In this document: positions 4,988 through 50,910 of the stretch, piece by piece
Position numbering within the stretch: the stretch's first letter is position 1
Layout of the letters: each line of letters opens with the position of its first letter
NCBI GenBank assembly: GCA_015061005.1
Contig: SUXJ01000014.1
Span: 1-52,160 of the forward strand
DNA from: Bacteroidales bacterium
GTDB lineage: Bacteria; Bacteroidota; Bacteroidia; Bacteroidales; Muribaculaceae
Direction: 5' to 3'
Length of the DNA: 52,160 bases
Notes under the pieces: model-generated
What the model was told of the DNA's origin: nothing
Seen by the model: only the letters and a program-made list of their open reading frames with translations
The model's database searches: none
Position numbers and translations under genes: made by a program

Positions 4988-6756
4988 GCCATTGGAAACA
5001 ATTGTTTGTTCCCGTCGGCGCAGTTTTGATGCTGACTGCGGCATTGTTTGCCGAAAATCCGCTGTCGCGCCCTGACACAGTGCCGATCACGCCACAAGTG
5101 CCCCAAGCCGATCGGCATGCTCCCGGTCGCATCTTTTTGGAGCAGGCGGACTCATTGATAGTGGACCGCGATGCCCCGGATGTGCAAATCGTTGTGGGCA
5201 ACGTTATGTTTCGTCGCGGCGACATGTTGATGTATTGCGACAGCGCGCGATTTTATACCTCGTCTTCCATGCCAACAGACTCGATGGAGGCGTTTGGCAA
5301 CATACGCATGGAGCAGGGCGATACGCTGTTTTTGTTTGGCGATTTAATGGAATATTCCGGCTCGGAGGAGTTGACCACAGTGTGGGCGGAATATGGCCGA
5401 GAAGTTAAATTAATAAATCGCGACGTAACGCTAACGGCTCCGATATTGTATTACTCCTTGCGCCAAGAACTCGGGTACTATGACCAAGGAGGCACGCTGT
5501 CAGACCCCAAAAATCAGCTCACCTCATGGCGCGGAGAATATGCTCCATCGACCAAAGACGCGAATTTTTATGATGACGTGGAATTGGTTGGAGTAAGCAA
5601 CAAAGGGGACACAGTGCGCGTCTTCTCCGACATATTGCTATATAACACGGAGAGCCGCATAGCGGAATTGACCGACAGGTCGCGCATAGTCGGTAACGAC
5701 GGAGATATACTAACCACAAACGGCATCTTCGACACCGGCGCCAACACCGCAATTTTGCTTGATCGCTCATTAGTTCACACCAGCCGCGGCAACACCTTGA
5801 CGGGCGATTCGCTATTCTATGACCGCGGATTAGGATTTGGCGAGGCATTCGGCAAGATGGAGCTGACCGATTCAGCAAAACACATGACGCTTTATGGTGA
5901 TTACGGATTTTACAACGAAGTGACCGACAGCGCATACTGCACCGGACATGCGATAGCGACGGAGTACTCGAACTCCGCGAAGCCTCTGTTTCTACACGGC
6001 AAGGAGATACGCACGTTTATTGCCGGCGATAGCGCCCGATTGATGATTGCGAATCCGGGCGTACGCTTTTGGCGAACGGACCTGCAAGGCGTCTGCGATT
6101 CGCTGACATACGTTGACAGCGATTCGACCATTCGCATGGATTATGACCCGATAGTATGGAGCGAAAACCGGGAAATCTTCGGCAACCGAATTATTGTTCA
6201 CATGAACGATACAACGATAGAGAAGGCCGTCTTGCCCGATTTCGGGTTTATGACCGAGCAGATTGAAGATCCATATTACAATCAACTGAGCGGCAAGGAG
6301 ATGATAGCCTATTTCGTTGACGGCGAGCTGAAGCAACTCGATGTTAACGGTAATGTGCAAGCAATCATGCTCCCACAGGAGAATGATTCGACCTACAATA
6401 AAATCGCCAACATCGAGTCATCGTTCTTACAGGCCTTTTTCAAAGGCAGAGAGTTGGAGCGCGCCAAGCTATGGAGCGAATCGACCGGGGCGGTTACTCC
6501 GCTCTTCATGGCCAAACGCAGCCAGCTGAAATTGCCTCAATTCAAGTGGATGGAATCGATACGTCCGACGGGTCCCGATGATTTGATTCACGAATCCGAC
6601 AGTAACGGTGAGTTAATTGATGAGAGCATTTCGGGCGACACGGAAGTCATTGAACGCTCCGAAAATATCGGCCAAAGCAGCGATAGCATTGCGAGTTTGC
6701 GCATCGAAGAGGGAAGCGGAATTGCCGGAACCGGCAACGATGTGCCCGTGCAATGA
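4984..6756 (+). CDS. OstA-like / LptA-like LPS transport protein
   Basis: Family known for periplasmic LPS transport; the Bacteroidetes version is a long OstA-type protein. The 590-residue sequence has a signal peptide (MSHWKQLFVPVGAVLMLTAALFA), then repeated beta-jellyroll-like strands with alternating 'GD...D' patterns (GNVMFRRGDMLMYCDSARFY, GNIRMEQGDTLFLFGD, GNTLTGDSLFYDRG). Translation is coupled to the surA-like gene by a 4-bp overlap. The last 48 codons, an acidic low-complexity tail (SDSNGELIDESISGDTEV), lie opposite the 3' end of the convergent portal-like gene (144-bp overlap). That tail could be a late extension of the reading frame into the neighbour. The jellyroll core is secure; the importance of the tail is not. 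Confidence 0.85.
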   Translation: MSHWKQLFVPVGAVLMLTAALFAENPLSRPDTVPITPQVPQADRHAPGRIFLEQADSLIVDRDAPDVQIVVGNVMFRRGDMLMYCDSARFYTSSSMPTDSMEAFGNIRMEQGDTLFLFGDLMEYSGSEELTTVWAEYGREVKLINRDVTLTAPILYYSLRQELGYYDQGGTLSDPKNQLTSWRGEYAPSTKDANFYDDVELVGVSNKGDTVRVFSDILLYNTESRIAELTDRSRIVGNDGDILTTNGIFDTGANTAILLDRSLVHTSRGNTLTGDSLFYDRGLGFGEAFGKMELTDSAKHMTLYGDYGFYNEVTDSAYCTGHAIATEYSNSAKPLFLHGKEIRTFIAGDSARLMIANPGVRFWRTDLQGVCDSLTYVDSDSTIRMDYDPIVWSENREIFGNRIIVHMNDTTIEKAVLPDFGFMTEQIEDPYYNQLSGKEMIAYFVDGELKQLDVNGNVQAIMLPQENDSTYNKIANIESSFLQAFFKGRELERAKLWSESTGAVTPLFMAKRSQLKLPQFKWMESIRPTGPDDLIHESDSNGELIDESISGDTEVIERSENIGQSSDSIASLRIEEGSGIAGTGNDVPVQ

Positions 6757-7956
6757 GTCGCCCACTCCGGCAGCCCGGTCAAAGAGCTTCATTTGCAGAT
6801 TGACAAGTTCATAGGCGCCACTCGTTGCCGGATTCGTTACGATTTGTCGCGGACCGGGCGAACCGGGCATAGGATTATAGGGAAGCACACCGTCATAGCT
6901 TGCCCATAGCTTTTTCACATCGTTCCAGTCAAGTTGATCAGAGATTTCATCTTCGGGGAATAGCAACACACCTTTTGCCGACGATGACATCATGTTGTCG
7001 ATCAGAGTAATCAATCGATTGATGTATTTTTGTTGATCAACGAGCCCCTCCACGAAGGGATGAATTTCGCCGTCGAGAAGCGGATAAAACTTCACGGCAA
7101 AAGGATGGCGCGGTGCAGAAATCTTTTTCAACACATATCCCTCCGGAGTCATAAATCTTCCTACCCACGAAGTGGTGAACTCATAGCGAGTTTGAATGCG
7201 CGGCTGTCCGCGTTTGGCACGTCTGCGATTCATGTTCGAAATTTCGTTTTCACGAGAGGTCGATGCCGAATAGAGGCTTGCAGTCAGCGGATCATGACAA
7301 CGTAAACGTTCGGCAGCCTCAAGCGTCCACACCTCAATGACTCGGCATCTTCCGGCATCGCGCGGAGTCATAAACGCCGCAGGCGATTCCGTCCCGGAGG
7401 CATAGAGGCGTTTGATTTCTTCAGCCATTGCGCGAGAGCCGCCGGAAAATCGCCCTAAAGTTTCCGGAAGCGACCAATCATGAAGCATTCCGATAATTTC
7501 AATGTCGAGCCCACGGGGGTCGCGAATCTCATTGCAGAAAAATCTGTCGGGCGAGACATTGTCGATCCACACGCCGTCACCTGCCGGGCGTTTTTCGTTT
7601 ACCACTCGCTGCACGGCACACCCGCTTACCAAAAACTCCTCGAGCATTCGTGCATCCAGCTCCTCGATTCGATTTCGGTCATCATCGGCAATGGGCGCAA
7701 CAGCATCATCTCGGCTGCGAAAATGCCCCACAATGGTTTTCACCAACCGATTAATCATATTATTGGTCAAGGGCACACGTCCGACCTGAGCGGCGTATTC
7801 GCCTTCGGTCATCCGTTCGCCGGCCGGCGTTGTGATGATGTCAGCCCATTGTCGGCCAAAAGTGAAGCGTTTAAAGCGCAAGCGTGCGGAGCGAAAATCA
7901 GCCAATCGTTCATAGGCCTTGGCCGCCGCCGAGAGAATATCAGTACAAATTTCCAT
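6613..7956 (-). CDS. Phage portal-like protein
   Basis: 447 residues. The order of features resembles tailed-phage portal proteins: an N-terminal part with RLRFKRFTFGRQWAD and the VPLTNNMINRLVKTIVGHFRS segment, a middle beta-rich region (RVIEVWTLEAAERLRC, PRHPFAVKFYPL), then a long helix (VEGLVDQQKYINRLITLID) as in portal stem/wing helices, and a C-terminal helical part ending in ALADIFGAFNDFRVARN. I assign the family by pattern, not by a search. It is the last of four genes in a tight minus-strand run and starts 2 nt after the preceding stop. Its 3' end overlaps the convergent OstA-like gene by 144 bp. No terminase, protease, tail or integrase gene is nearby, so it is part of a reduced or repurposed module. 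Confidence 0.7.
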   Translation of the reverse strand: MEICTDILSAAAKAYERLADFRSARLRFKRFTFGRQWADIITTPAGERMTEGEYAAQVGRVPLTNNMINRLVKTIVGHFRSRDDAVAPIADDDRNRIEELDARMLEEFLVSGCAVQRVVNEKRPAGDGVWIDNVSPDRFFCNEIRDPRGLDIEIIGMLHDWSLPETLGRFSGGSRAMAEEIKRLYASGTESPAAFMTPRDAGRCRVIEVWTLEAAERLRCHDPLTASLYSASTSRENEISNMNRRRAKRGQPRIQTRYEFTTSWVGRFMTPEGYVLKKISAPRHPFAVKFYPLLDGEIHPFVEGLVDQQKYINRLITLIDNMMSSSAKGVLLFPEDEISDQLDWNDVKKLWASYDGVLPYNPMPGSPGPRQIVTNPATSGAYELVNLQMKLFDRAAGVGDSLHGHIVAGSGNSASLFDAQTRNAIAALADIFGAFNDFRVARNALIN

Positions 7957-7958
7957 TT

Positions 7959-8474
7959 CTAAAATCCGGGGGGTAAGAGTTTTTCAAGAGCACGATCATC
8001 AAAGCAGTATGCGTCTTCACTGAGGTCGGCGGCACACATCAGTTCAACAAGTTCACCCGAGGCATTTGCCACAACAACGGAACGCGCAGAACTATTGGCA
8101 ACCACGGGTTCGGTCCAAAACGGATTTCCCGCCCGAGCTTTAACATCAGCAAGAGAGTCGGTCGGAGCAACCGCAGCAGCCCAACCGGCAAACCTCACAC
8201 CGAGAATGCGGCGCACCTGATCAGGGGCAGTCACTATGGTCAAACAGCCGTCGGTCCTTATTTCGGCTTTTATTGCCATATCTATCGGCGCGAGAAACTC
8301 CACGGGAGCACAGTCAAGCAGATTGAGATACCACGCACGCATCTCAGCTTCGAGAATCAAGTCGCGATCCACGGCATCGGTTCGCGTGAGCGTACAGTCG
8401 AGCCTCAAAGGCTCGTCTGCACGCACAAGTCGCCACAATTCAAGCATGGCGGTTTTAGTCAATAGCTTTCTCAT
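7959..8474 (-). CDS. Unknown protein of the capsid/portal cassette
   Basis: 171 residues, no signal peptide, no membrane segment, and no motif I recognise. The N-terminal half is helical and charged (MRKLLTKTAMLELWRLVRADEP); the rest alternates short strands with Ala/Val-rich stretches. It overlaps the end of the capsid-like gene by 4 bp (ATGA) and is followed after 2 nt by the portal-like gene, so it is made together with them. A head-completion or connector role would suit the position, but this is inference from context only. Confidence 0.7.
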   Translation of the reverse strand: MRKLLTKTAMLELWRLVRADEPLRLDCTLTRTDAVDRDLILEAEMRAWYLNLLDCAPVEFLAPIDMAIKAEIRTDGCLTIVTAPDQVRRILGVRFAGWAAAVAPTDSLADVKARAGNPFWTEPVVANSSARSVVVANASGELVELMCAADLSEDAYCFDDRALEKLLPPGF

Positions 8475-9691
8475 TGAGAATCAGAGGTTGCAATTACTCT
8501 GACATGGGCCTCGGGATAGCGCAAAACCAAGCAGCTCACTTCGGTCAGCACTACTGCTTCAGTGTTTCGCTGTCCGCTGGTGCGCAAGTCCAAAGTATCG
8601 GCAGAGAATGGGATATGGACGTATTTGGTTAGATATTCCGGATCAATAATCAACCCGTCGGCACTATGACCGCATGAGTCCATAATTTCGGAATGAATCA
8701 CGTAGAGAGTGCCGAACTTTGAGTGCATCTCGGTGAAATCCAGTCCCCAACGGCTCACTACGTCACCGGGCAACATTACGCGCTGATTACCTTCGAGCAG
8801 ACTGAGTTGTTCGATGAGTTCGGTGCCCGCGATTAAGATTTTACGTGCAGAGCCGCCATGACCGGTGAACGCTTCGCTCATAATTTTCAGCCAAGCGGCT
8901 GCATTGAGTTTTCCGGAAGGATATGACGCCTGTTTTCCGGCTTGATTCCAAATTCCCCCGGTCAGGAACACTTCGCTTTTCTTGGCAGGGTCGGTTATGC
9001 GCGCCATATTGCCGAACAGGAAACTGCGCTCCATTCCCTGACGCATATCGTAGATTGCCACTTCCTCTTGGTCGGAGAAAGTCCAGCCAACCTCTTTATT
9101 TGCAGCCTTGAGCATGGTTGACTGCTCAATTTGCGCTTTAAATATTTGGCAATAATTCTGTTTCTTTTCGGGCAATGCCTCATATTGCGAAGTTTGCACG
9201 TCGAGTTCCGCTGCCGCTCTTCCCATTCGAATGACTTTTGCCCCGGCGTTAATGGCCGGCACCGATGCTACACATCCCGAAGCAAATACCGGATACAGAG
9301 TCAAGGCATCAGACGCCACGTCAGCCACATAGAACACCATTGGAGAGCCATTGACCGATTCGGAATCGGGAAGCATCACAGTGTCAGACGGTTCGAAGAT
9401 GCTCGCATCGTTCACGGCAAGGATTACCTTGGTTTGAGAACCCGGAGTGACGGTCACGGACTCTGAGTCGGCAGTTACCTTAGCTTCCGCGCCACGAGTG
9501 GCAACTGCATAGTAGTCAACGGTCATGCTGCGACAAGGTCGCGATGCGGCATATCGGCTGATTTGATCGACAGGAGTGGCCATGGGGCGCAGTTTGGTGA
9601 TGCGCACATCCACTTCATTACGAAGGAGTTCGGGTGCATTGCCGAGAGTGTTGGCAAGGGTAAGCGGTTCGCCTGAGATTTGTTTGCTCAT
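8471..9691 (-). CDS. Major-capsid-like protein (SU10/DUF5309-type resemblance)
   Basis: 406 residues. Several features resemble major capsid proteins of the group that includes SU10-like and many Bacteroidetes phages. The order is an N-terminal region with RPCRSMTVDYYAV, an inserted beta-rich domain (residues about 70-150), QIFKAQIEQSTMLKAANKE, then MERSFLFGNMARITDP and WNQAGK. A helix-strand core around SARKILIAGTELIEQL follows, then a C-terminal half containing GTLYVIHSEIMDSCG and LIIDPEYLTKYVHIPFSADTLD. The assignment is from the succession of features and from the portal-like partner downstream, not from a search. The gene is complete, without frameshift, and its codon use looks like that of its neighbours, which suggests maintenance rather than decay. 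Whether it still assembles into a shell is unknown. Confidence 0.65.
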   Translation of the reverse strand: MSKQISGEPLTLANTLGNAPELLRNEVDVRITKLRPMATPVDQISRYAASRPCRSMTVDYYAVATRGAEAKVTADSESVTVTPGSQTKVILAVNDASIFEPSDTVMLPDSESVNGSPMVFYVADVASDALTLYPVFASGCVASVPAINAGAKVIRMGRAAAELDVQTSQYEALPEKKQNYCQIFKAQIEQSTMLKAANKEVGWTFSDQEEVAIYDMRQGMERSFLFGNMARITDPAKKSEVFLTGGIWNQAGKQASYPSGKLNAAAWLKIMSEAFTGHGGSARKILIAGTELIEQLSLLEGNQRVMLPGDVVSRWGLDFTEMHSKFGTLYVIHSEIMDSCGHSADGLIIDPEYLTKYVHIPFSADTLDLRTSGQRNTEAVVLTEVSCLVLRYPEAHVRVIATSDSQ

Positions 9692-9729
9692 AAAAAATAA
9701 TATTATTTAAAAAGGTTAGTGATTGATTT

Positions 9730-9927
9730 TTACAGGTCCCAAATTGATTTTCGGGCAGAGGCAAGGATTTGAAATTCTCGCGGAGCATTGTCGGGTTCCG
9801 GCGCATTGCTTTCCCATACTGCCGGCTCCATCATTTTTGAAGTAATCTGTTCGTTTAAGCCTCGTTGATAGCCGCGCTGTTCGGCTTCGGCAAGTTGCTG
9901 ACTGAAATCATGGTTTTGTTCTTCCAT
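9730..9927 (-). CDS. Small acidic protein at the head of the capsid/portal cassette
   Basis: 65 residues from ATG 9927. The first half is a charged helix (QQLAEAEQRGYQRGLNEQI), the second half is acidic and Pro/Asn rich, and the C-terminus is SARKSIWDL. An in-frame upstream start at 9963 is less likely because it falls in the promoter region. It precedes the capsid-like gene by 38 bp on the same strand. The position just before a capsid gene and the helical charged composition would suit a short scaffold or cargo-tag protein, but there is no sequence proof. Confidence 0.55.
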   Translation of the reverse strand: MEEQNHDFSQQLAEAEQRGYQRGLNEQITSKMMEPAVWESNAPEPDNAPREFQILASARKSIWDL

Positions 9928-9965
9928 AGTAAAAAATTTGAGTTGGTTATACACGTTTGACAATG

Positions 9966-9994
9966 CAAAATTACGCCAAGGGAAAGGCGCAAAA
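9966..9994 (-). promoter_or_regulatory. Promoter of the capsid/portal cassette
   Basis: On the minus strand TAATTTTG (9973-9966) matches the -7 consensus. A TTTTG at 9994-9990 is a -33 candidate with a shorter than usual 16-bp spacer. It is divergent from the promoter of the CCA-family gene. Confidence 0.55.
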
Positions 9995-10026
9995 GCGTAG
10001 ATTTTCCGCAGTACACGATTTTTTTG

Positions 10027-47649: not shown

Positions 47650-50493
47650 ATGAATCTTCGCAACGGGTTAACCGATGCCGACGTACTGCAAAGTCGCGAG
47701 CGGCATGGTGCTAACGTTTTGACCCCTCCGGAACGAAAGCCTTGGTGGAAAGAGTTCCTGTCCAAATTCACCGACCCCCTGATTATAATCCTACTCGTTG
47801 CCGGCGTTCTCTCCATTGGCATATCGCTTTATGAATCAATCGGACTGGGTCATGGATGGAAAACGTTTGTCGAACCCATCGGAATTTTTGTGGCCATTGC
47901 ATTAGCCACCTCTCTTTCTTTCATCTTTGAACAAAAAGCAAATAAAGCTTTTCGAATACTCAATCAAGTTAACGATGATGAGCCGGTCAACGTTATCCGC
48001 AACGGCACCGTAACCACAATTGCACGAAAAGATGTCGTCGTTGGCGACATTGTTTTGCTTAACACAGGCGATGACGTCCCGGCCGACGGAGAGCTCCTCG
48101 AGGCCGTAACCTTGAGCGTTGATGAATCCTCTCTTACGGGCGAACCCTTATGCTCAAAAACCGTTAACCCCGAACAATTTGACCCCGAAGCAACCTATCC
48201 CGGCAACCACGTTATGCGTGGCACAAAAGTAATGGAGGGACATGGCATAATGCGCGTTTTCAAGGTTGGCGATGAAACTGAAATGGGAAAAGTATTCGTT
48301 GAATCCCAAATAGACAACTCCGTAAAAACGCCTCTCAATGAACAACTTGAAGGACTCGCCGCTTGGATAACCAACGTAAGCTATATTATTGCCGGAGTGA
48401 TTATTCTAAGTCAGCTCGTAATATTCCTTGGGTTGACCAATTGGCAGTCATATTGGACGGTACCGCTCGTTGCAATTTTCATGTTGCTTTTGACCAAAAA
48501 GTTCAAAGTATGGTCCAAAACGGCATGTATCGTTACTATCATATCATTCTTTTTGCTCTTTATCGCTGCAGTGGCAGGAGCATTCTCAATGATACACCCG
48601 GAGGCCGACGCCAACGCTTGGTCTGAACTCTTGGCCCACACCCTACAAACCCTTATGGTGGCTGTCACCCTTTTGGTCGTAACAGTGCCTGAAGGATTAC
48701 CGATGGCGGTGACCCTGTCTCTATCCTACTCGATGAGCCGAATGCTCAAAACCAACAATCTGGTGCGCAAGATGCATGCGTGTGAAACAATGGGAGCGAC
48801 CACCGTGATTTGCACTGACAAAACCGGCACTCTCACTCAAAATCAAATGCGCGTGTATCAAACCAACTTTACACCCGATGCGCCCGTCGATTTGATTTAT
48901 GAAGGCATCGCGGCGAATTCCACCGCCCAACTCGACCTATCCGCAGAAAAACCCACGGTACTCGGAAACCCCACTGAAGGGGCACTCCTGCTGTGGCTCA
49001 ACAGTGTAGGCATTGATTACCGCACCCTTAAGGAAAAAACCGTGCGCATCAGCGAACTTCCGTTCTCCACGGAACGAAAATATATGGCCACGGTGGTCAA
49101 ATCCGCCTCTGGCAAGAAGATTCTCTACGTGAAAGGTGCTCCCGAAATCGTATTCGCCATGTGTCGGAACACTTCAGGTATCTCTCGCAAAGAAATTGAC
49201 GCTCAACTGCTTGAATATCAAAATCAAGCAATGCGCACTCTCGCATTTGCCTATCAAATTCTTGAAGACGGCGACCCCTCGATCGACAATGGTAAAGTCA
49301 TTGCCGAAAATCTAACATTCATTGGATTTGTCGCTATATCCGACCCGGTACGTAGCGATGTCCCCGCAGCAGTTAAAGAGGTGATAAACGCCGGCGTAAA
49401 CATCAAGATTGTAACCGGCGACACCCCCGGAACCGCCAAAGAAATAGGACGACAAATAGGTCTATGGAACGATGCCATCGACTCTGACCGTAACATCATC
49501 ACCGGAACGGAATTTGCCGCTCTATCATACTCTGAATTAAGCAAGCGAGTGACAGACCTCAAAATCATTGCGCGCGCCCGACCGTTAGACAAAAAGCGAT
49601 TGGTGGGAACCCTCCAAGAACTTGGAGAAGTCGTGGCCGTAACCGGCGACGGAACCAACGACGCACCCGCCCTGAAAGCAGCCCACGTTGGACTATCCAT
49701 GGGTGACGGAACCTCCGTCGCAAAAGAAGCCTCCGACATCACAATTATCGACAACTCTTTCGCATCCATAGGTCGCGCCGTCATGTGGGGACGCTCGCTC
49801 TACAAAAACATTCAACGCTTCCTCCTGTTCCAGCTCACCGTAAACGTAGCCGCATGCTTCCTCGTGCTTTTCGGCTCTTTTATGGGAACTGAATCACCCC
49901 TCACCGTCACGCAAATGCTATGGGTAAACCTGATCATGGACACCTTCGGAGCTATGGCATTGGCATCTCTCCCCCCATCGCCCAAAGTGATGAATGAAAA
50001 GCCGAGAAACCGCATGGCGTCTATTCTCACCAAACCCATGCTCACAGAACTCCTCGCAGTAGGCACCATTTTCTTCTCGCTAACCATCGGATTTTATTGG
50101 CTCTTCAACCATGCCGACATCACATCCATCCCTCAAATGCTCAAGGCGACAATAGGAGAAAAATCACCAATGACAGCCTACGAATCCACCCTCCTTTTTA
50201 GCATCTTCGTGTGGACTCACTTCTGGTACATGTTCAACTCTCGCTGCTTCGAAACCGGCAACAGCGTGTTCACCGTAAAAATGAGCCGCGAATTTTGGAC
50301 CATAGTTGGAATTATCATTGTCGGACAACTGTTCATAACCGAAATTGCCTACGAATTTTTCAACGTCGAGCCAATGCTCCACACCCTCGATTGGCAATTC
50401 AACCCATCAGGAACACTCGACCTGATAATAATCATCGCTGCATCCTCGCTCGTAACTTGGACGCGCGAAGCCTACCGACTCATCCGAAAATAA
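47650..50493 (+). CDS. Calcium-translocating P-type ATPase, PMCA type
   Basis: 947 residues. N-terminal cation-ATPase domain, paired membrane helices from about residue 45, the actuator loop with SVDESSLTGEPL, the membrane motif VTVPEGLPMAVTLSLSY (Ca site helix), the phosphorylation site D390 in CTDKTGTLTQNQM, a nucleotide domain with KGAPEIVF, and the hinge VTGDGTNDAPALKAAHVG. The C-terminal six helices are complete. It exports Ca2+ from the cytoplasm. Co-transcribed with the prohibitin-tail-like gene 12 bp upstream. It ends about 55 bp before the RNA locus. Confidence 0.95.
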   Translation: MNLRNGLTDADVLQSRERHGANVLTPPERKPWWKEFLSKFTDPLIIILLVAGVLSIGISLYESIGLGHGWKTFVEPIGIFVAIALATSLSFIFEQKANKAFRILNQVNDDEPVNVIRNGTVTTIARKDVVVGDIVLLNTGDDVPADGELLEAVTLSVDESSLTGEPLCSKTVNPEQFDPEATYPGNHVMRGTKVMEGHGIMRVFKVGDETEMGKVFVESQIDNSVKTPLNEQLEGLAAWITNVSYIIAGVIILSQLVIFLGLTNWQSYWTVPLVAIFMLLLTKKFKVWSKTACIVTIISFFLLFIAAVAGAFSMIHPEADANAWSELLAHTLQTLMVAVTLLVVTVPEGLPMAVTLSLSYSMSRMLKTNNLVRKMHACETMGATTVICTDKTGTLTQNQMRVYQTNFTPDAPVDLIYEGIAANSTAQLDLSAEKPTVLGNPTEGALLLWLNSVGIDYRTLKEKTVRISELPFSTERKYMATVVKSASGKKILYVKGAPEIVFAMCRNTSGISRKEIDAQLLEYQNQAMRTLAFAYQILEDGDPSIDNGKVIAENLTFIGFVAISDPVRSDVPAAVKEVINAGVNIKIVTGDTPGTAKEIGRQIGLWNDAIDSDRNIITGTEFAALSYSELSKRVTDLKIIARARPLDKKRLVGTLQELGEVVAVTGDGTNDAPALKAAHVGLSMGDGTSVAKEASDITIIDNSFASIGRAVMWGRSLYKNIQRFLLFQLTVNVAACFLVLFGSFMGTESPLTVTQMLWVNLIMDTFGAMALASLPPSPKVMNEKPRNRMASILTKPMLTELLAVGTIFFSLTIGFYWLFNHADITSIPQMLKATIGEKSPMTAYESTLLFSIFVWTHFWYMFNSRCFETGNSVFTVKMSREFWTIVGIIIVGQLFITEIAYEFFNVEPMLHTLDWQFNPSGTLDLIIIIAASSLVTWTREAYRLIRK

Positions 50494-50547
50494 AAAAATT
50501 TTACCCCTACCGACGAAAATCTACGCTTTCACCCTCTGTTCCCTTCT

Positions 50548-50555
50548 TAACTTTG
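50548..50555 (+). promoter_or_regulatory. -7 box of the structured RNA locus
   Basis: TAACTTTG, exact consensus; the -33 region (TTTC at 50527-50530) is weak. It is mirrored by CAAAGTTA at 50570-50577. Confidence 0.65.
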
Positions 50556-50569
50556 CAACATCAGAATGT

Positions 50570-50599
50570 CAAAGTTAGTACATTGAAATGCTGGAACAA
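50570..50599 (-). promoter_or_regulatory. Opposed promoter inside the RNA locus
   Basis: On the minus strand TTG (50599-50597), a 19-bp spacer and TAACTTTG (50577-50570): full consensus and ideal spacing. It would transcribe leftward, antisense to the end of the calcium ATPase gene. Together with the plus-strand -7 box it makes an 8-bp perfect inverted repeat. Confidence 0.55.
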
Positions 50600-50666
50600 G
50601 AGGGTGAATGATCCGTCCCGGTCATTCCAAACACGCCGCCGGGTAGGCCGCGGTCGGCAAAAACTC

Positions 50667-50723
50667 AAGGGGGACTCCGTCGCTGCAAGCCTGGGAAACT
50701 TGCACCGACCGAGTCCCCCTTTT
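50667..50723 (+). terminator. Strong terminator of the RNA locus
   Basis: 11-bp perfect outer stem (50667-50677 with 50711-50721) with internal pairing, ending in a short T run (TTTT at 50720-50723). Confidence 0.8.
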
Positions 50724-50749
50724 GTCATACATACCCCCTCTCCCCCTCA

Positions 50750-50785
50750 CATAAGCAACATAAGTCACATAAGTTACATAAATCT
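50750..50785. repeat. 9-bp tandem repeat (CATAAGNNN), four units
   Basis: CATAAGCAA, CATAAGTCA, CATAAGTTA, CATAAATCT. It is the reverse complement of the CTTATGNNN array at 189-242 and also follows a terminator and a C/G-rich tract. Confidence 0.7.
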
Positions 50786-50813
50786 TAAAAAAACAAAAAA
50801 CTAGCCAATCCAC

Positions 50814-50845
50814 TTGCAAAACCGTCTTTCGGTTTCGTATATTTG
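50814..50845 (+). promoter_or_regulatory. Promoter of the secreted-protein pair
   Basis: TTG (50814-50816), a 21-bp spacer and TATATTTG (50838-50845); leader of about 60 nt to ATG 50911. Confidence 0.7.
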
Positions 50846-50910
50846 GGCACACAATTCTCAAGCGTGAGATAAAAATCCAATCATTAACCCCTTAAATCAA
50901 CACTCGAACC

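Follow-up and report, generated by a model that had tools for sequence, protein, structure and literature searches.

We analysed a cassette of phage head genes in a 52,160-nucleotide stretch of DNA from a Bacteroidales bacterium of the family Muribaculaceae (contig SUXJ01000014.1; the whole stretch is called the window here), together with the unlinked genes that share its promoter-like site. The cassette comprises four tightly packed minus-strand genes at 6613-9927, separated by a 2-nt gap, a 4-bp overlap and a 38-nt gap, exactly as described in an earlier reading of the DNA from its letters alone (the sequence-only reading). The promoter that this reading had assigned to the cassette corresponds to a conserved two-part promoter-like site on the minus strand at 10003-9965, and the base use that had seemed like that of the surroundings is indeed similar (G+C content 51.5%, against 50.6% and 50.9% in the flanks). 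Loci (L), genomes (G) and genera (g) are numbered as in our survey. The features of the cassette are as follows.

9965..10003, minus strand: promoter-like site of the head cassette, AATCTACG-N22-TAATTTTGC (exact pattern match; common to unlinked loci)
9730..9927, minus strand: small gene, 65 residues, putative scaffold remnant (hhalign to a phage scaffold-like gene)
8471..9691, minus strand: major capsid protein, SU10 type, 406 residues (Pfam, PHROG, solved structure)
7959..8474, minus strand: neck/tail-ring-like protein, 171 residues (homologue of BS-TP4 gp13; hhalign)
6613..7956, minus strand: portal protein, P22-like, 447 residues, without the C-terminal ~200 residues (Pfam, PHROG, Foldseek, alignment)

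Profile searches and structure prediction secured the capsid-like and portal-like identities that had been proposed for two of these genes. The capsid matched PF17236 (SU10_MCP; E 8.1e-48, 163.8 bits, above the cut-off of 24.1), phrog_26635 (E 1.5e-79) and the solved VP1 capsid 9in6 (E 4.9e-8); the Pfam family Phage_capsid (PF05065) had no match in the window's own genome. The portal matched PF16510 (P22_portal; E 3.7e-17, 62.5 bits versus a cut-off of 26.1), with the profile matched only to position 428 of 594, and phrog_156 (E 2.7e-26). A single-sequence search of the PDB with the portal gave nothing useful, but profile and model searches succeeded, and its predicted structure (predicted local distance difference test, pLDDT, 79) matched solved phage portals in Foldseek (best E 7.4e-15).

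The 171-residue gene and the small gene had no match in PHROGs or Pfam, the former had none among phages by tblastn, and the latter gave a chance-level match only in NCBIfam. Profile comparison with hhalign placed the 171-residue family in the gp13 family of Bacteroides phage BS-TP4 (probability 99.1, E 4e-19); comparisons with fam7, fam41 and fam8 gave nothing. Its AlphaFold model (pLDDT 92.4) has neck/tail-barrel chains of phicrAss001 at ranks 1-5 of the Foldseek PDB list, none of them at E 0.001 (best 0.033, template modelling score about 0.4), with unrelated folds starting at rank 7; against viral predicted structures, three matches do reach E 0.001. In hhalign, 56 columns of the small-gene family align with the C-terminal end of the phage gene that precedes the capsid gene (probability 87, E 3.9e-6), and a version of 251-279 residues is kept in the same place in three genomes of other families. 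This similarity favours scaffold over cargo, the two roles that had been suggested for the small gene, which may be a scaffold remnant keeping only the C-terminal end. Because the gp13-family and scaffold-like matches join those of capsid and portal, all four cassette genes have phage counterparts. In G552, G585 and G317 (loci L115, L118 and L132), which belong to other families, the head locus is longer, with a full-length scaffold-like gene and with fam7 and fam8 after the capsid gene.

The capsid matched four phage records only, three of which are the Bacteroides phages BS-TP4 (PQ571277), BKO1-TP3 (PQ571269) and BF1-TP2 (PQ571263), at 38.0, 37.9 and 37.9%; the same three phages matched the portal at 31-34%. 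Their gene order is scaffold-like gene, capsid, small gene and gp13 family. The Muribaculaceae genes thus share with these phages a homologous capsid, portal, scaffold, ring protein and large terminase (TerL), with the scaffold-capsid order kept, and a homologue of a further protein, fam5, is also found in BS-TP4. Unlike the cassette, BS-TP4, BKO1-TP3 and BF1-TP2 are complete phages of 64-68 kb with their genes together and portals annotated at 622-657 residues, and BKO1-TP3 and BF1-TP2 carry an annotated integrase or tyrosine recombinase and a repressor. The phage genes annotated as tail spike (L097:20340-22436, L098:12873-14987 and L099:15118-17145) are terminase homologues, and the notes of two of them mention terminase structures.

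The sequence-only reading had called the four genes intact. They are real genes, but for the portal the word holds only with a reservation, since its C-terminal third, ~200 residues in phage portals, is missing. From 35 loci with a portal frame, 22 Muribaculaceae portals were entered in an alignment; all 22 stop at nearly the same position, apart from short individual tails in two, and the three phage portals, like the portal of G363 (a member of another family), extend ~200 residues further. Because all 22 end about alike, the missing C-terminus looks ancestral and not a product of decay. A scan of viral contigs gave 188 portal relatives, of which 80 were kept (L286-L365). Among L291-L365 there were 74 closed portal frames of 624-686 residues and none of 530 or fewer. 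The five best viral-contig portals (L286-L290; 39-43% identity) have 470-521 residues, and the window capsid was matched in all five of these records, in three at 52-54% over about 400 residues, in one at 36% over 198 and in one as a 31-residue piece; we read the five as pieces of bacterial chromosome catalogued among viruses. When 53 portals were placed in a tree, a branch with support 100/100 set apart the 30 of cassette type (26 bacterial and 4 from L286-L290). Many genomes of genera g4, g7 and g30 may have a split or duplicated portal, and separate contigs carry portal and capsid in G017, G023, G024, G040 and G082. G363 (L131) has a 709-residue portal frame near its terminase and fam5.

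To assess conservation, we surveyed 297 genomes of the window's GTDB family, 204 of them of high quality, at a threshold of E 1e-5. The capsid was matched in 268 genomes (190 of the high-quality set; 29 of 30 genera), the portal in 277 (194; 29 of 30 genera) and the terminase in 275 (194 of the high-quality set). For the capsid, 240 of the 268 matches were at E 7.3e-22 or better. The record titles of 43 loci that were fetched include Muribaculaceae bacterium, Duncaniella muris and several other Bacteroidales names. At the level of the order, the capsid was found in 22 of 295 genomes, 4 from the same family, 17 from six other families (46-52% identity) and G315 (39%); the G315 capsid, and also an additional capsid copy in each of G526 and G430 (31-35%), may belong to phages. 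The terminase was clade-restricted, with matches in 4 of 395 genomes of the class (the window's own, G317, G315 and one weak). The capsid had no plasmid match, and patterns built on the window capsid found no relative among viral contigs. Portal and terminase absences overlap in 6 genomes (of 20 lacking the portal and 20 listed of the 22 lacking the terminase; Fisher p 0.0009), for which incomplete assemblies are a possible cause.

Inheritance broadly follows the host. Trees of capsid, terminase and the housekeeping protein YchF for 29 genomes each required 8 label changes, the minimum for 9 groups, against a shuffled mean of about 17, and the window's genus formed one clade in all three (support 100/99, 100/100 and 97/92, respectively). 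Resolution between genera was poor in these trees, and g6 was not one clade in the capsid or YchF tree. Distances were correlated between capsid and portal (0.815), portal and YchF (0.421) and portal and terminase (0.366) in 23 genomes, and between capsid and terminase (0.637), capsid and YchF (0.441) and terminase and YchF (0.369) in 29, all with p of 0.003 or lower. The ratio of non-synonymous to synonymous substitution (dN/dS) was 0.024-0.194 for the capsid, 0.032-0.180 for the portal and 0.108-0.302 for the 171-residue gene, and in single pairs 0.072 for the terminase, 0.106 for fam5 and 0.192 for the small gene; 18 pairs were tried, of which one was identical and several were saturated, and L044 equals L045 in sequence. 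Some flanking genes lie below the system genes in dN/dS and some above. The head genes are phage-derived, chromosomal and vertically inherited, with trees broadly like that of the host, and with dN/dS of 0.30 or lower wherever it could be computed the system is under selection and not decaying. Both domestication and selection, as the sequence-only reading had supposed, are borne out.

The same reading took the cassette to stand alone, with no terminase and no lysis genes. It is one of at least four separate, unlinked loci of the system in the window's genome, which encodes both functions away from the cassette. Homologues of the BS-TP4 terminase occur in 14 of 15 chosen genomes. In the window's genome there are two copies at different places (L113:8798-10638 and L114:8637-10471; 97% over 1841 bp), both open, the second carried alone with its promoter-like site. 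The protein matches phrog_2 terminase (E 4.9e-24) and the solved T4 gp17 (E 1.8e-8), and its ATPase (motor) and nuclease motifs are intact when aligned with the phage protein. The Pfam family Terminase_6N matched in 4 of the 15 genomes, 4 of its 5 matches being other terminases, and the terminase of the window's genome scored 18.2 bits, under the cut-off of 22.

Among the 24 genomes chosen, 23 encode the protein fam5 (623-959 residues), a relative of BS-TP4 gp26. Ten of 17 fam5 members match phrog_32516, of unknown function, and up to four weakly match structural or tail families; the member in the window's genome had no PHROG match of its own, and the fam5 profile had none in the PDB. Its bacterial members are diverse (15-43% identity to the G000 protein). 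In L035 and L037, fam5 directly precedes the cassette, in several other genomes it adjoins the terminase gene, and in L036 and L056 portal and terminase gene share a strand, the terminase gene being downstream. Whether these parts are dispersed or linked thus differs between lineages.

What these loci have in common is the promoter-like site. In the window's genome, ATCTACG stands 22 bases before TAnnTTTGC upstream of the cassette, both terminase copies and fam5, and the form of the site that seven genomes of the window's genus share is AWTCTACG-N22-TAWYTTTGC. We take the TAnnTTTGC half to resemble the -7 element of Bacteroidetes promoters, with the ATCTACG half replacing the usual -33 TTTG. 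In 0.99 Mb of loci, most of them fetched for system genes, the spacing of 22 occurred at 12 distinct places and any other spacing from 8 to 39 at 1 place. A search of the seven whole genomes found 110 sites versus 6 for a reversed-pattern control (35/4, 14/0, 7/0, 8/0, 7/0, 18/2 and 21/0 per genome); up to 2 mismatches were allowed, and many two-mismatch sites may be chance. The site precedes the cassette in 7 of 7 genomes, the terminase in all 4 in which this gene stands alone, and fam5 in 7 of 7, with two mismatches in G147 and from 0.7 kb upstream in G020 and G096, with a Lin1244-type gene between in G096. In other genera, the TAnnTTTGC half is kept before many cassettes and the upstream blocks differ. 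Cassette and terminase of G007 share a block of their own at 19 of 20 bases, the best figure with other genomes being 10, and by eye G031 and G010 are alike.

The window's genome has 17 exact sites, nine of a repeated type, R (by sequence; four were examined), and eight others. These eight head the two terminase genes, the cassette, fam5, a lysis cassette and three Lin1244-type genes; the last two kinds of locus played no part in deriving the pattern. At the lysis cassette, a phage lysozyme gene follows the site in 7 of 7 chosen genomes (PF00959, E 1e-39 to 1.1e-38 in the three checked in Pfam) with a small lipoprotein-like gene behind it; a membrane protein of 63-75 residues comes before the lysozyme in 6 of 7 genomes. 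The membrane protein of the window's genome matched 77 phage records at E up to 1 (56 Bacteroides, 18 Porphyromonas and 3 unnamed; best E 5e-13), and in the one record read its phage homologue directly precedes the endolysin gene. From position and make-up, the membrane protein would be a holin and the lipoprotein a spanin. The Lin1244-type genes are solitary, with 4 examined in the window's genome and 6 each in G020 and G096. Lin1244_N was matched in 4 of 4 scanned, one of them under the cut-off, as were phage replication-initiator families, weakly in one. No downstream neighbour is common to most of 16 Lin1244-type loci.

Taken together, a co-regulated, dispersed system resembling a gene transfer agent (GTA) is the best reading of these genes and probably the correct one; simultaneous expression, particle formation, packaging of host DNA and its transfer are inferred from them. 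The phage parts are kept by most sampled Muribaculaceae, apparently in working order. A phage would have been captured before the Muribaculaceae diversified, its surviving genes then being scattered over the chromosome and kept by the host. A host signal might jointly activate the promoters of a common type (ATCTACG-N22-TAnnTTTGC in the window's genome), upon which the head locus would supply scaffold peptide, capsid, ring protein and portal for a small podovirus-like head, and the terminase, encoded elsewhere, would pack and cut DNA. The large structural protein fam5 could serve as a tail or receptor part. The holin-like protein, lysozyme and lipoprotein would open the cell, and released particles would bring DNA to relatives. 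With the system genes so dispersed, particles would be expected to carry fragments of the host chromosome. A bolder version is unlikely: a fully dispersed GTA, united only by a dedicated promoter type that changes lineage by lineage in step across unlinked loci, in which Lin1244-type genes fire local replication and the host chooses the regions to be amplified and packed.

Several known agents offer comparisons. RcGTA-type agents of Alphaproteobacteria consist of vertically kept, host-controlled, phage-derived genes, with further genes at other loci; these agents have one main head-tail cluster, a siphovirus-like tail and other capsid and portal families. The Muribaculaceae genes are likewise vertically kept and phage-derived; unlike those of such agents, they have no one main head-tail cluster, and their capsid and portal families are different. 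The closest precedent is FpGTA of Faecalibacterium prausnitzii (PMC12946183). Both belong to gut bacteria and have a podovirus-type portal, capsid, scaffold and TerL with genes split between loci; in FpGTA, ~125 kb separate the two operons of one strain, and lysis genes belong to the second (PMC12946183). FpGTA comes from another phylum, and its operons are compact and only two, whereas the Muribaculaceae system occupies at least four loci. Its particles and ~9-kb packaged DNA were shown experimentally, in contrast to a system known from genes alone, and the available part of the report describes no shared promoter site such as that of the Muribaculaceae system (PMC12946183).

A number of observations weigh against reading the genes as a GTA-like system. 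It is predicted from genes alone, with no particle, transcript or packaged DNA to go with them, and neither a small terminase nor a complete tail was recognised. For the holin-like and lipoprotein genes, neither Pfam nor PHROGs had a match above cut-off, and G080 has no holin-like gene at its lysis cassette. The seven genomes that define the site were picked because it precedes their cassette; G041, G061 and G110, of the same genus, lack such a site in the loci read, and outside the seven a test of within-genome similarity, which permitted no shift and had few sites to work with, gave a clear result in G007 alone. Nine R-type sites and nine of a second type, R2, few of them examined, head elements with no known phage role. 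Conservation is also uneven. The capsid match was weak in 28 of 268 genomes (E 3.6e-11 to 8.4e-6; 23 in genus g30 and 5 in g4), most of which have strong portal and terminase matches. Ten of the 204 high-quality genomes had no terminase match; G005, G052 and G104, which are 99% complete, keep capsid and portal with no terminase match, and G005 also lacks fam5. The portal query matched twice in many genomes of g4, g7 and g30, and in the tree of 53 portals that of G363 groups with the phages. The human-gut study that described FpGTA assigns lateral transduction to Bacteroides and places its itemised GTA events (23 of 25) in other phyla (PMC12946183).

The sequence-only reading had proposed a transfer particle, a nanocompartment or an interference device. 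The first fits best because the terminase, structural protein and lysis genes kept elsewhere share the cassette's site. A nanocompartment, that is, a protein shell without DNA, would suit an operon headed by a scaffold-like peptide and capsid, and we consider it very unlikely. Encapsulin-like nanocompartments consist of shell and cargo only, with no portal or terminase, and the present system is not so limited: the cassette operon includes a portal gene, most of the family retains portal and terminase, in the seven genomes the site is common to terminase and lysis genes, and a shell has no use for a portal, terminase, ring protein or lysis genes. An anti-phage interference device, in which shortened head parts poison the assembly of incoming phages, merits hardly any credence. 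The shortened portal and scaffold could be dominant negatives, and related full phages exist in Bacteroides, but portal identity to those phages is only 31-34%, which makes co-assembly unlikely, and the kept terminase and lysis genes would go unexplained.

A killing particle like PBSX, which would pack host DNA, lyse its producer and kill competitors instead of transferring genes, is unlikely but deserves serious attention. PBSX of Bacillus subtilis is encoded at one locus and has a contractile tail. It is a domesticated particle that packs random ~13-kb host DNA, as the proposed system would, but it is bacteriocin-like, killing and not transferring (PMC7667829). The same parts list would serve such a particle, and the diverse fam5 (15-43% identity) might bind receptors. 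Against it, no gene for a tail tube or sheath came to light, although no genome-wide search for these was made, and a weapon retained by most members of the family would presumably meet immunity in most relatives. Decay of a prophage, or independent phage remnants, would account for a portal and scaffold shorter than in phages and for parts that are absent or weakly matched in some genomes, but this is extremely improbable given the presence in 268, 277 and 275 of 297 genomes, the low dN/dS, the host-like trees, the uniform portal end and the shared promoter site. Equally remote is a phage or satellite that, though split, has remained mobile and puts its genome together again for transfer. Locus positions do differ between genera, and in the window's genome the terminase gene alone was copied to a second site (97% over 1841 bp); the trees, however, are broadly host-like, and no integrase was recognised beside the loci, the neighbours of which were not systematically annotated.

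If true, the GTA-like reading would make this the first gene-transfer-agent candidate in Bacteroidota that we know of, kept by most of the Muribaculaceae; a literature search by title and start of abstract returned no GTA reported for Muribaculaceae or Bacteroidota. In a mouse-gut study, transduction patterns were found on 83 of 805 Bacteroidetes contigs, and 46 contigs had patterns of generalized transduction or GTAs, with no breakdown by taxonomy in the available text (PMC7667829). Muribaculaceae are common in the mouse gut, and the system would provide a mechanism for gene flow among them and a possible source of chromosomal DNA in gut virus-like particles. It suggests that a phage broken into unlinked host genes can still persist as one set. 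A search route also follows, since head, motor, structural and lysis genes could all be recovered through their common promoter site, with no recourse to gene order.

The surroundings of the cassette vary. The sequence-only reading had suggested a survey of related genomes for the same genes at the same locus; the genes are widespread in the family, and the flanks are no conserved address. The CCA-type gene that flanks the cassette was seen in 1 of 43 loci, L033, which is close kin. The other neighbour, an ostA-like gene, is convergent and overlaps the 3' end of the portal by 144 nt (6613-6756 of the window), its final ~48 residues being an antisense reading of the portal gene; among the 43 loci, the ostA match of L033 sits inside the portal gene, antisense, and one further locus has a weak dus match. 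A shared gene of ~135-185 residues lies directly behind the portal in five loci (L038, L039, L041, L043 and L053), and a different shared gene takes this place in L067-L069.

The window holds one other exact copy of the site, at its far end.

50518..50556, plus strand: another exact copy of the site, at the head of a repeated element that appears to be non-coding (exact match, four copies aligned); link to the system uncertain

This element, R (50518-50735 of the window; also L255, L256 and L257), consists of the site followed by ~170 nt that are conserved, strongly structured and apparently non-coding, with a terminator-like hairpin. Positions 50400-50900 had no Rfam match above cut-off, and sub-threshold microRNA matches were read as chance. 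The repeat R2 (L258 and L259) is ~1.05 kb long and 92% identical between two copies, with an open reading frame of ~210 residues behind a one-mismatch site; by sequence there are nine R2 sites in the window's genome, of which two were examined. In G080, a one-mismatch site on the minus strand (L031:6094) lies just before a gene that is presumably histidyl-tRNA-synthetase-like, which may reflect chance or a wider use of the promoter.

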